NCBI GenBank assembly: GCA_013213785.1
Contig: JABSPZ010000007.1
Span: 310,001-374,000 of the forward strand
Source of the DNA: Henriciella sp.
GTDB taxonomy: Bacteria > Pseudomonadota > Alphaproteobacteria > Caulobacterales > Hyphomonadaceae
Direction: 5' to 3'
Length of the DNA: 64,000 nucleotides
Below the pieces are notes generated by a model that did not search any database, was not told where the DNA came from, and saw nothing but the letters and a program-made list of their open reading frames with translations. Below, one piece after another: positions 32,092 to 36,703 of the stretch (positions are counted from its first letter, which is position 1; each line of letters opens with the position of its first letter). The translations under genes were made by a program, and so were the position numbers.

Positions 32092-32259
32092 AGAGACTCT
32101 CCGGTAATCTTGATCAGCGTTAGACGGCCGACGTGACATCCCGTGTAGCGACGTCATTCGCAATCGCAAAGCCACCAGAGTGATTTGAGCAACTTATATC
32201 TCGTTCAAATTCATGGCATATTGGACTTGAAAGAATGCATTCGATCAGAGGGGCGTTTC

Positions 32260-32700
32260 ATGCTCGATCTCATTATCAGCGGACTCTTTTTGGCAAATGC
32301 GATCTTGTACGGATTGGGGTTTGTCGCGTTTTATCTTCGTCGGGACGTGTTCGCCAAAGTTGTTGTTCCCATCCAAGCTGATCGCATAAATTCAGCGTAT
32401 GAAGCGGTGATAGAGTCAGGGCGCTTCATGGGCGGCTTTAATTTTGCGCTATCCGCATAGAATATCGCTTTGTTCTTCAATGTCGGAGGTCTCGAAACAC
32501 CGGCTCAACTATCTCTTATTCTGGCGTTCAACGCATTGGCGCACGGGTCGCAATTTTTTGGAAATGTTCCGATGGCGCTTAAAAATATGCGGGGCGGCGG
32601 ACTCTGGAATGTGTTCAAGGGCGTGATGTTGCAGATTTTTGTGTTCGACTTTGTTTTGATGGTCGGGAATTTCTGGATGGCCCTAGCGCTCTTGGTTTAG
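32260..32700 (+). pseudogene. DUF1304-like membrane protein gene interrupted by an in-frame TAG (32458-32460)
   Basis: MLDLIISGLFLANAILYGLGFVAFYLRRDVFAKV...GRFMGGFNFALSA*NIALFFNVGG...AFNALAHGSQFFGNVPMAL...; both ORFs share the same frame with no other lesion. Confidence 0.8.
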
Positions 32701-32726: not shown

Positions 32727-33581
32727 CTAGGCGTCCGTCAGAGCCTGCTGAACACTTGCGCGATAAGACCGGCTCGCTTGCTGCTCACTGCCATCCTCGA
32801 GCACGATAGAGGCGCTTCCATCTCCATTTGGGTGCAGAGCCTTGATATCGGATTTGTGCACGATGCAGGACCGGTGAATACGGATATGATTCTGCCCCGC
32901 CGCTGCGAGGAGCTGCTCCAGGTCTGACAGCGTCATCCGAACCAGGAGTTCTTTATTCGCAAGTTGGATCTCGACATAATTCGCCGCCGATTTCGCCAGA
33001 CGCACATCCTCCGCATCCACAACATAAATCCGCCCCCCAGATGTGAGCGTCAGACGCCCGCTTTCCTTCGCCTCGGCCTGACGGCCTTCTTTATTGAGGC
33101 GTTGCCGGGCGACAAAACGGCCAAACCAAAAAATCGAGGTCAGTAGCAGGAACGTATAAGCGTCTTTCTGTAGCTCATAGAACCAGATGAGGGGCTGATC
33201 GAGCCCGAAAACATAGGGTCCATCAAAGAGGATCGGCCATCCGGTCTTCCGAAGGGCAACCATGGCAAGGACGTGAAGCGTTCCAAAGATCAGAAAACCG
33301 ATCGCGAACCCAAAAACGGATCTCTTCCAGGACTCTGTCGTCAGCGGAAACCGCGTCAGCAATGCCGGAACAATCAAGGCCAGCAACGCGACGATGATAT
33401 GACTGGTCAGTTGGGTGAACCAAAACACGAGCGCGGGCTCGCTGCTCCCGGTTCGGACGGCATCAATTTGTGTGGACGTAGAAAGCGTGATCCAGGACAG
33501 GAATGTGAACGCAAGAACCAGTTTGTAGCTGGTCCGGTCGGCCTGCTTTTCAGCCGCAATATCCTCAGAGATCACACTCAT
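32727..33581 (-). CDS. Membrane-anchored LytTR-family DNA-binding transcriptional regulator
   Basis: About four hydrophobic segments then LytTR domain GGRIYVVDAEDVRLAKSAANYVEIQLANKELLVRMTLSDLEQLL...HIRIHRSCIVHKSDI. Confidence 0.9.
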   Translation of the reverse strand: MSVISEDIAAEKQADRTSYKLVLAFTFLSWITLSTSTQIDAVRTGSSEPALVFWFTQLTSHIIVALLALIVPALLTRFPLTTESWKRSVFGFAIGFLIFGTLHVLAMVALRKTGWPILFDGPYVFGLDQPLIWFYELQKDAYTFLLLTSIFWFGRFVARQRLNKEGRQAEAKESGRLTLTSGGRIYVVDAEDVRLAKSAANYVEIQLANKELLVRMTLSDLEQLLAAAGQNHIRIHRSCIVHKSDIKALHPNGDGSASIVLEDGSEQQASRSYRASVQQALTDA

Positions 33582-33634
33582 AGTTTGCCTATGCCGTGTC
33601 TTGAATGAAGTTCGCAAGTAGGCCCTATCTGAAT

Positions 33635-33713
33635 TTCATCCCAGCCTGCTGTATTTCGTCCCAAACGCGCTCCATTCATCCCACCCACCTGTCACAGACC
33701 CCATTTGGGATGA
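33635..33713. promoter_or_regulatory. Three direct repeats TTC(A/G)TCCCA at 33635, 33655 and 33675 plus an inverted copy TGGGATGA at 33706
   Basis: Exact 20-bp period read from sequence in the intergenic region between divergent LytTR and acyltransferase genes. Confidence 0.8.
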
Positions 33714-33764: not shown

Positions 33765-34961
33765 ATGTCGTCAGTTCAACAGCGCCGTTATGATCTAGAT
33801 TGGTTGCGCATCCTCGCGTTCGGACTTCTGATTTTTTATCATATAGGGATGTTCTTTGTGAGCTGGGACTTTCACGTGAAGAGCGTTCACTCGGGCCCGG
33901 TCATCGAACCGGCGATGAAGCTGGTCAATCCATGGCGTATGACGGTCTTGTTTCTGATCTCCGGGGTCGCTTTGCGGTTTGCAATGGACAAAGCCCCCCT
34001 CGGTCATTTTGCGTGGGCCCGGTTCTGGAGACTCTTCCTACCTCTGGTCTTTGGCGTGCTTGTCATTGTGGCGCCGCAGTCTTGGTTGGAACTGTTGGAA
34101 AAAGGGGAAACCCAAGCCGGCTTTTTGTTCTTTTACGGGGACTACCTCTCCGCCAGCACGGACTATTCCATCATACTGCCGACCTGGAACCACCTTTGGT
34201 ATGTCGCCTATCTGATCATTTACACGTTCATATTGATCGCGCTTTACCCCCTCGTGACGCGGCTTTCGCGCGCCATCGGTCCTCTTACGTCTCGCTCACC
34301 GCTGCTGTTTCTTGCGGTTGCCCTTGTGCCCGTTGTCCTCTTCGCCCTGCACGATCTCTGGCTGGAAGATGTGTTCCCTTCGACGCATGCGCTGGTCGAT
34401 GATTGGGGAAATCACGCACTCTATTTCCCGTTCTTGCTGATCGCATTTCTGGCGGCAAAGTCAGAGCGCATCTGGGCAATCATGGACCGGTTCTACAAAC
34501 CAGCGATTGTTCTCGCTATAACACTCGCGGCTTGGCAGCTTTTTGTGTGGTCGCTGAGTGAAGCCGACATTGCTGATGTTCCATTCCTCGAGCTCATCGC
34601 GCTAGTCCACATGATGGTCGAGCCCATCTATGCCTGGGCATGCATCCTGGTCGCGTTTGGTCTGGTTCGACGTTTTGCAAACCGGCCCAGCAAAGCGCTC
34701 AGCTATATGACCGAAGCGATTTTCCCATGGTATATTTTGCATCAGACCTTCATCGTGATCTTCGGGTTTTGGCTGACGCGCCAGGGGCTCTCACCGATGC
34801 TGGAATTTGGACTGATAACGGTACTGACGTTCGCCAGTTGCCACTTGGTCCACGAATACATCATCCGCAGATCTGGGGTCTTACGCCCGCTATTTGGTTT
34901 GAAGGCACGTGACAGCGCGAAGGACCGCTTGATTTCTAGGGCAGCGACGGGATCAGCCTAA
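33765..34961 (+). CDS. Acyltransferase family 3 (OpgC-like) membrane protein
   Basis: RRYDLDWLRILAFGLLIFYHIGMFF...RMTVLFLISGVALRFAM...NHLWYVAYLIIYTFILIALYP...YILHQTFIVIFGFWL. Confidence 0.9.
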   Translation: MSSVQQRRYDLDWLRILAFGLLIFYHIGMFFVSWDFHVKSVHSGPVIEPAMKLVNPWRMTVLFLISGVALRFAMDKAPLGHFAWARFWRLFLPLVFGVLVIVAPQSWLELLEKGETQAGFLFFYGDYLSASTDYSIILPTWNHLWYVAYLIIYTFILIALYPLVTRLSRAIGPLTSRSPLLFLAVALVPVVLFALHDLWLEDVFPSTHALVDDWGNHALYFPFLLIAFLAAKSERIWAIMDRFYKPAIVLAITLAAWQLFVWSLSEADIADVPFLELIALVHMMVEPIYAWACILVAFGLVRRFANRPSKALSYMTEAIFPWYILHQTFIVIFGFWLTRQGLSPMLEFGLITVLTFASCHLVHEYIIRRSGVLRPLFGLKARDSAKDRLISRAATGSA

Positions 34962-35069: not shown

Positions 35070-35501
35070 ATGACCGATTTCGAAATCGTCAATCAGATTA
35101 CGGATACGATGAGCTTATTTCTGCAGGGGTTCGGTTTGTTGAGCTCTGTGATTTTTGCCTACATCACCGGCGCATTTTATTTTCTCCACCGCGCCCCGTT
35201 CTTCACAAAGCTTGTCTCGTTTCTGTTCCTCGTGTTCGCGGCGACCTTCATCCTGATCAATATGCTTGGCGCGTTTTATCACTATATGGCGCTGGCCGAT
35301 CAGGTGGATCAACAAGTCGCTCAGGGGTCCGTTTCGCTGCTGATTGAGGCGGTTCAAACAGGGCGGACACGCCCTATGGCCATCGGTGGCTTATGGACCG
35401 TTGGACCCGTGATTATGGGAACGCTGGCAATGTGCTTTTGGATGACCTTCTTCTGGGCCCCTCCAAAATCCGAGAAGTCAGATACAGATTCAGAGAGCTA
35501 A
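35070..35501 (+). CDS. Hypothetical membrane protein
   Basis: MTDFEIVNQITDTMSLFLQGFGLLSSVIFAYITGAFYFLHRAPFF...; several hydrophobic helices. Confidence 0.7.
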   Translation: MTDFEIVNQITDTMSLFLQGFGLLSSVIFAYITGAFYFLHRAPFFTKLVSFLFLVFAATFILINMLGAFYHYMALADQVDQQVAQGSVSLLIEAVQTGRTRPMAIGGLWTVGPVIMGTLAMCFWMTFFWAPPKSEKSDTDSES

Positions 35502-35539: not shown

Positions 35540-36703
35540 TCAATTGGTCATCGCAACACACGCATTTAATCGCTCAGCTGGGGTCTCAAAGTCCAGTGTT
35601 TTTCTCGGGCGTTCGTTCAGTGATCTGGCGATCTTGTTGAGCTCGCCTTGAGTGAACTTTGATAGATCTGTTCCTTTGGGAAGGTACTGTCGCAGGAGAC
35701 GGTTCGTGTTTTCGTTGGTGCCGCGCTGCCAAGGGCTTTGCGGATCGCAGAAATAGACGTCGATATTGGTCTCCATGGTGAACCGCCGATGGTCTGCGAG
35801 TTCATGGCCTCTATCCCAGGTCAGTGACTTATAGAGCTCGCTCGGCAGTCGCCTGGACTGTTTGATCAATGCATTGACGACGGTTTCGGTATGACGACCG
35901 GAGAGCTTGGCCAGCATCACATAGCGCGAGTGACGTTCGACCAGTGTGGCGACAAAGCTATTGTTTGGCCCGCAGATCAGGTCTCCCTCCCAGTGCCCCG
36001 GCACTGCGCGGTCTTCGACTGAAGCTGGGCGTTCACTGATCGACACAGCGCCCTTGATCTGCCCACGTGGGTCTTTGTTCACCTTCTTGTACCGCGAGCC
36101 TCTGAGCTGACGTTTTGATCGTAGATACTGAACCAGCTCTTTCTTTAGAGCCCCGCGCGCCTGAACATACAGGCTCTTATAGATCGTCTCATGTGACACG
36201 TGCATCGCCTCTTGGGCCGGGTATCTGCGCTTTAGCCAACCAGCAATTTGCTCTGGTGACCAATCGCGCTTCAACTTGAAAATAACAGCTTGCCGCAATC
36301 GACCATTGAGCACCAGCTTGCAGCGCTTAGGGCGCAAGGCCTGCTTCCAAGCGCGTTTGTCTGCTAGCACCGCACGATACCGACGCCGGCCACCATTGCG
36401 TCTGATCTCACGGCTAATTGTGGAAGGAGATCGACCGAGTGCGCGCGCAATCGCCCGTACGGTTTGGCCAGCAACCAAACCTCGGGAGATCTCTTCGCGC
36501 CCTGCTAGCGTCAATGCCGAAGGAGCCCGCTTGCGCTCAACTGGAGTGTACCCGCCAGTTGACCGGATGTGCTTGAAAATGCTCGACGATGGCTTGCCAA
36601 ACACACGCCCGATCGACTTCATCTGCTCGCCGCGTCGCCATCGCTCCCACAGCTCAGCCTTTTGAGCCGGTGTAAATCCAACCCGTACGTATTTCTTCCT
36701 CAT
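35540..36703 (-). CDS. IS30-family transposase
   Basis: HTH region RAIARALGRSPSTISREIRRNGG; DDE core GHWEGDLICGPNNSFVATLVERHSRYVMLAKL...LTWDRGHELADHRRFTMETNIDVYFCDPQSPWQRGTNENTNRLLRQYLPKGTDLS. Confidence 0.96.
   Translation of the reverse strand: MRKKYVRVGFTPAQKAELWERWRRGEQMKSIGRVFGKPSSSIFKHIRSTGGYTPVERKRAPSALTLAGREEISRGLVAGQTVRAIARALGRSPSTISREIRRNGGRRRYRAVLADKRAWKQALRPKRCKLVLNGRLRQAVIFKLKRDWSPEQIAGWLKRRYPAQEAMHVSHETIYKSLYVQARGALKKELVQYLRSKRQLRGSRYKKVNKDPRGQIKGAVSISERPASVEDRAVPGHWEGDLICGPNNSFVATLVERHSRYVMLAKLSGRHTETVVNALIKQSRRLPSELYKSLTWDRGHELADHRRFTMETNIDVYFCDPQSPWQRGTNENTNRLLRQYLPKGTDLSKFTQGELNKIARSLNERPRKTLDFETPAERLNACVAMTN

Follow-up and report, generated by a model that had tools for sequence, protein, structure and literature searches.

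The window analyzed here, a 64,000-nucleotide stretch of a Henriciella sp. contig, contains two divergent genes whose common intergenic region carries three direct repeats. As described in the first-pass annotation, which was made from the sequence alone, the ATG of a LytTR regulator gene lies at 33581 on the minus strand, and an acyltransferase gene starts at 33765 on the plus strand; both genes are supported by Pfam. The features of the locus are as follows.

32727-33581, minus strand: membrane-anchored LytTR regulator of 284 aa (Pfam PF04397; AlphaFold2; Foldseek)
33613-33618, minus strand: weak candidate -35 element of the LytTR promoter, CTTGCG, 12 nt past the box 1 nine-mer toward LytTR
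33631-33642, plus strand: LytTR box 1, GAATTTCAT + CCC, direct repeat nearest the LytTR start (PWM 13.8, conserved three-box model)
33651-33662, plus strand: LytTR box 2, GTATTTCGT + CCC, direct repeat 20 bp past box 1 (PWM 13.4)
33671-33682, plus strand: LytTR box 3, TCCATTCAT + CCC, direct repeat 20 bp past box 2 (PWM 14.5)
33706-33713, minus strand: inverted TGGGATGA, present in the window and without enrichment in relatives
33765-34961, plus strand: divergent acyltransferase-3 membrane protein, MdoC/OpgC-like (Pfam PF01757; NCBIfam MdoC)

The LytTR domain of the regulator comprises residues 184-281 (Pfam PF04397, 70.7 bits against a cut-off of 22.6, E=1.2e-19). In the AlphaFold2 model, which was computed with 19 family members and has a mean pLDDT of 90.7, helical segments at residues 3-43, 50-77, 85-119, and 130-174 are followed by a long helical linker and then by the LytTR beta domain. 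Based on their hydrophobicity, these four N-terminal segments are predicted to be located in the membrane. A Foldseek search with the model retrieved 3d6w (TMt 0.79) and AgrA 3bs1/4g4k (TMt 0.74-0.78), which corresponds to the LytTR beta fold, and returned no convincing PDB match for the membrane part beyond the LytTR domain. Pfam assigns the LytTR domain alone to the protein, with no sensor domain and no MHYT. Collectively, the Pfam score and the four modeled membrane helices bear out the earlier description of this protein as a membrane-anchored LytTR regulator. Such proteins are common in alphaproteobacteria; to our knowledge, few of them have a known operator.

The divergent acyltransferase matches Pfam Acyl_transf_3 (PF01757) with 89.8 bits (E=2.2e-25). 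Its score against the NCBIfam MdoC equivalog is 117 bits, below the cut-off of 338, which places it in the broader Acyl_transf_3 family only, and no solved relative was found by sequence at E up to 0.1. The membrane protein encoded at 35070-35501, previously proposed as a possible further target, has no homolog near the pair in 80 loci of relatives and was dropped from the model; on the same grounds, neither this protein nor the genes beyond LytTR were retained as members of the unit. Past the acyltransferase and this membrane protein lies a complete IS30-family transposase gene (35540-36703, minus strand; 298.8 bits against a cut-off of 80). Additionally, downstream of LytTR, a small membrane-protein frame at 32185-32700 (plus strand) has an in-frame TAG at 32458-32460 and is then open to about 32700; it has the appearance of a gene interrupted by one stop codon.

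Inspection of the sequence located the direct repeats TTCATCCCA at 33635, TTCGTCCCA at 33655, and TTCATCCCA at 33675, and the inverted TGGGATGA at 33706-33713, all exactly where the first-pass annotation had placed them. With up to two mismatches, the pattern TTCRTCCCA-N11-TTCRTCCCA gave two overlapping matches in the window, both at the array, against 0.01 expected from shuffles. The same two matches were the only ones in the whole 3.36-Mb genome, so that the array is the sole site of this pattern. The inverted copy, which had been listed together with the repeats, is found in 3 of 85 loci of relatives versus 4 in shuffles; it was rejected as a component and probably lies outside the operator. 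A fourth direct copy was likewise rejected as part of the array, being present in only 9 of 85 loci.

To follow the array across relatives, we searched the LytTR protein in 105 genomes of the family and read the 30 best loci. Nearly all of them have a divergent acyltransferase gene upstream and an intergenic gap containing three boxes 20 bp apart. When periods of 12 to 30 were scanned in these 30 loci, the mean best three-copy score was 21.4 of 24 at period 20 and 14 to 15.5 elsewhere. A LytTR-alignment scan of named genomes yielded 80 loci, partly overlapping the 30 family loci, from Henriciella, Hyphomonas, Ponticaulis, Robiginitomaculum, Maricaulis, Oceanicaulis, Aquisalinus, other Parvularculaceae, Devosia, Nitratireductor, and others. 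The three-box array is kept upstream of LytTR orthologs in Henriciella, Hyphomonas, Ponticaulis, Maricaulis, Oceanicaulis, and Parvularculaceae, and more faintly in some Rhizobiales. It also fades in the most distant loci (Devosia, Pelagibacterium, and some Parvularculaceae), which commonly have no more than one or two good boxes.

With the refined model, 84 of 91 non-redundant regions have three boxes that outscore all of 1,820 shuffles, and the median real score was 34.7, compared with maxima of 17.2 for shuffles and 4.5 for the opposite strand; since the model was trained on the same 91 regions and the loci are phylogenetically related, these counts describe the array strongly but are neither independent events nor a strict probability. 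A 20-20 period is seen in 32 loci and a 21-21 period in 23; the other loci are mixed. The 21-21 period marks particular clades (L145 and L147-L162), in which the box tail is often CAC, not CCC. Collectively, these comparisons confirm the repeats as a real array, conserved in many marine alphaproteobacteria and not a product of chance, with the features predicted for a LytTR-type operator.

Across the 105 whole family genomes, the exact two-box pattern had 23 matches in 16 genomes, and the reversed control pattern had none. Twenty of these matches lie directly upstream of a LytTR gene from this membrane-anchored family, and the other three fall outside such sites: two are in a REP-like stretch and one is within a coding frame; therefore, the operator appears to be dedicated and not part of a broad regulon. 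A multi-target regulon was accordingly rejected, the exact pattern being essentially single per genome. At locus L164, a 20-bp unit, CTCATCCCTCTCTGAAGTCA, stands in tandem by a REP-like palindrome at about 2070-2120 and mimics the operator pattern with no adjoining LytTR gene.

The refined three-box model gives the family consensus CCGCCGYTCGTCCCGG. The LytTR-type nine-mer within it is GCCGYTCGT, followed by C and then a mostly conserved CC, and the nine-mers are spaced by 11 bp. Direct repeats of about 9 bp lying 10-13 bp apart, the form expected of operators of LytTR regulators, are present in 84 of 91 loci. In the window, the boxes keep the right half of the nine-mer, while the left half is degenerate (GAAT, GTAT, and TCCA vs. 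GCCG). The nine-mer proposed in the first-pass annotation was out of register, in that it covered the right-hand part of the box plus the trailing CCC, and the likeness to AlgR-type boxes was hidden for this reason. Extended leftwards, the box reads CCGYTCGTCCC and includes CCGTTCGTC, the experimentally defined AlgR core of P. aeruginosa (PMC4064291). The streptococcal boxes of LytTR systems, for example, ACCTCTTAG and ACCACTTAT, also resemble the family box (PMC6193735). The predicted box is thus of the ordinary LytTR type, within the usual range of these regulators, and the earlier suggestion of a different LytTR specificity is not supported.

The position of the array is tied to the regulator. 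In 46 of 84 loci, box 1 and a LytTR ATG are separated by 48-55 nt, compared with 11-15 loci for control windows of equal width, and the modes are 50 to 52 nt. In contrast, the distance from box 1 to the acyltransferase, taken to its seventh codon, varies from 78 to about 208 nt. A CTT[GC] element is found 9-12 nt past the nine-mer toward LytTR in 26 of 84 loci, mostly at exactly 10, against 0-8 loci for other 4-nt windows; a scan of the region with the generic sigma-70 consensus found no promoter. In autoactivating LytTR regulatory systems, there is a strong bias toward repeats 10 bp upstream of the -35 element (PMC6193735). Furthermore, LytTR paralogs without the acyltransferase (L029, L030, and L032) retain period-20 boxes of variant sequence, which indicates that the boxes follow LytTR. 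The acyltransferase-free membrane LytTR paralogs (L029, L030, L032, L053, and L061) carry the variant boxes TTCGCACC, CTCGCCCC, and ATCGTCCC at period 20 and may represent another regulator-operator pair built on the same plan; in L053, the divergent neighbor resembles a TPR protein by inspection. Other LytTR genes of the same genome were considered as users of the box and rejected, as their upstream regions lack it. Two same-genome LytTR-type genes, L167 (1350-2243, plus strand) and L168 (1699-2433, plus strand), are divergent from their neighbor and have no box array.

The preference for about 50 nt between the array and the LytTR ATG, together with the variable distance to the acyltransferase, points to autoregulation first, and positive autoregulation would be the simplest reading. 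Of the 55 family genomes in which a match reaches E<=1e-40, 54 have the acyltransferase divergent from and directly beside LytTR, and because this adjacency is kept, it is likely that the acyltransferase is co-regulated from the array. Given the variable array distance, however, its control is less certain than that of the regulator. The proposal of an operator of an autoregulated LytTR switch thus stands as far as the conserved array and its LytTR-linked position are concerned; binding by the LytTR protein, the sign of regulation, and control of the acyltransferase are what we infer from them.

The array might instead govern the LytTR gene alone. The acyltransferase would then be transcribed independently and linked to the regulator by co-inheritance, for instance because the LytTR membrane domain senses its product or substrate. 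In more than half of the loci, roughly 50 nt separate the array from the LytTR ATG, as against 78 to about 208 nt on the acyltransferase side, and this speaks for such pure autoregulation. Nevertheless, the two genes are nearly inseparable, divergent, and share one short intergenic region, and divergent promoters of such pairs are often both controlled; we therefore regard this explanation as rather unlikely, although it deserves consideration. A further doubtful candidate is a repressor operator: with LytTR bound, one or both promoters would be kept off until the membrane domain detects a cue. It has a precedent in CoxC, a transmembrane LytTR protein that represses through three direct repeats about two turns apart (PMC11347149). 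However, the CoxC repeats overlap the -35 element, whereas the nearest box here is about 10 bp upstream of the candidate -35, which is the arrangement of autoactivating LytTR regulatory systems (PMC6193735).

The repeats could in principle be bound by a different, unlinked transcription factor. This is very improbable in light of the AlgR core in the family box, the occurrence of the box in 105 genomes essentially only beside the membrane-anchored LytTR family, and the persistence of variant boxes at LytTR paralogs with other neighbors. Nothing but their short length suggests that the repeats are a chance occurrence, a simple repeat, or a mobile-element remnant, and the likelihood of such an origin is negligible: the period and the box are conserved across genera while the spacers have diverged, and the site is single in the genome.

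With considerable confidence, we thus propose that the array serves the neighboring membrane-anchored, one-component LytTR regulator as its operator, that self-activation is the most likely role of this operator, and that the divergent acyltransferase would also be switched from it; the reader of the array is almost certainly the adjacent regulator itself. In the proposed mechanism, the 20-bp period would bring the three LytTR boxes to the same side of the double helix. Several regulator molecules, tethered to the inner membrane through their four-helix anchors, would occupy the boxes with their LytTR domains. The bound regulator would most likely activate its own promoter, whose candidate -35 lies about 10-12 bp downstream of the nearest box, and the same array would also drive the MdoC/OpgC-like acyltransferase. 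An envelope-acylation enzyme would thereby be switched by a membrane-sensed cue. A bolder version, which we offer only tentatively and consider unlikely as a whole, is that the locus represents a widespread alphaproteobacterial switch not described before. Here, a four-helix membrane LytTR protein would sense the envelope state, perhaps the acylation product of its MdoC-like partner, and act through a three-box operator dedicated to it and found roughly once in each genome, closing a feedback loop on envelope acylation from the membrane.

Operators of this kind are already known, and we found no earlier report of the version seen here; a search of the open-access literature, with subscription literature outside its scope, found neither the LytTR-acyltransferase pair nor its box. 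If the assignment holds, a large LytTR subfamily gains an operator and a dedicated partner gene, and a single short intergenic region is enough for direct tests of DNA binding, of autoregulation, and of what the membrane domain does.

The closest format is that of CoxC from Afipia carboxidovorans, a membrane-anchored repressor, and RcoM-1 from Paraburkholderia xenovorans, both one-component LytTR proteins that use three direct repeats spaced by about two helical turns (PMC11347149). The three boxes and the 20-bp or 21-bp period are shared with these systems, whereas their repeat, TTCNNGCA / TTNNNGCN, does not match the consensus CCGYTCGTCCC. Moreover, the CoxC sensor is an MHYT domain with seven membrane segments, and RcoM senses through heme, in contrast to the four segments and lack of a known sensor domain here, and their targets are CO-oxidation genes, while the probable target here is an MdoC/OpgC-like acyltransferase. 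The LytTR regulatory systems HdrRM and BrsRM are autoregulated and have 9-bp direct repeats 11-13 bp apart, located near upstream of their own -35 (PMC6193735). In these systems, a single operon encodes a soluble LytTR protein together with a separate membrane inhibitor, whereas here one polypeptide carries both the membrane part and LytTR, with a divergent partner gene. AlgR, in turn, is a soluble response regulator with scattered boxes, in contrast to the triplet with a 20-bp period.

In its modeled layout, the regulator resembles HigX and other transmembrane LytTR proteins of Caulobacter, which are also alphaproteobacterial and have four N-terminal membrane helices, a linker, a C-terminal LytTR domain, and envelope-related targets (PMC13384398). 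The HigX ChIP motif is reported to be an inverted repeat at many promoters (PMC13384398), which fits LytTR custom poorly; the array here is a precise, conserved direct-repeat operator candidate, with essentially one occurrence in each genome and a divergent acyltransferase as its dedicated partner. Given the HigX inverted repeat, membrane LytTR proteins may bind DNA unlike each other. Collectively, the locus is a combination of a HigX-like layout, a putative operator of the CoxC format, and an AlgR-like box.
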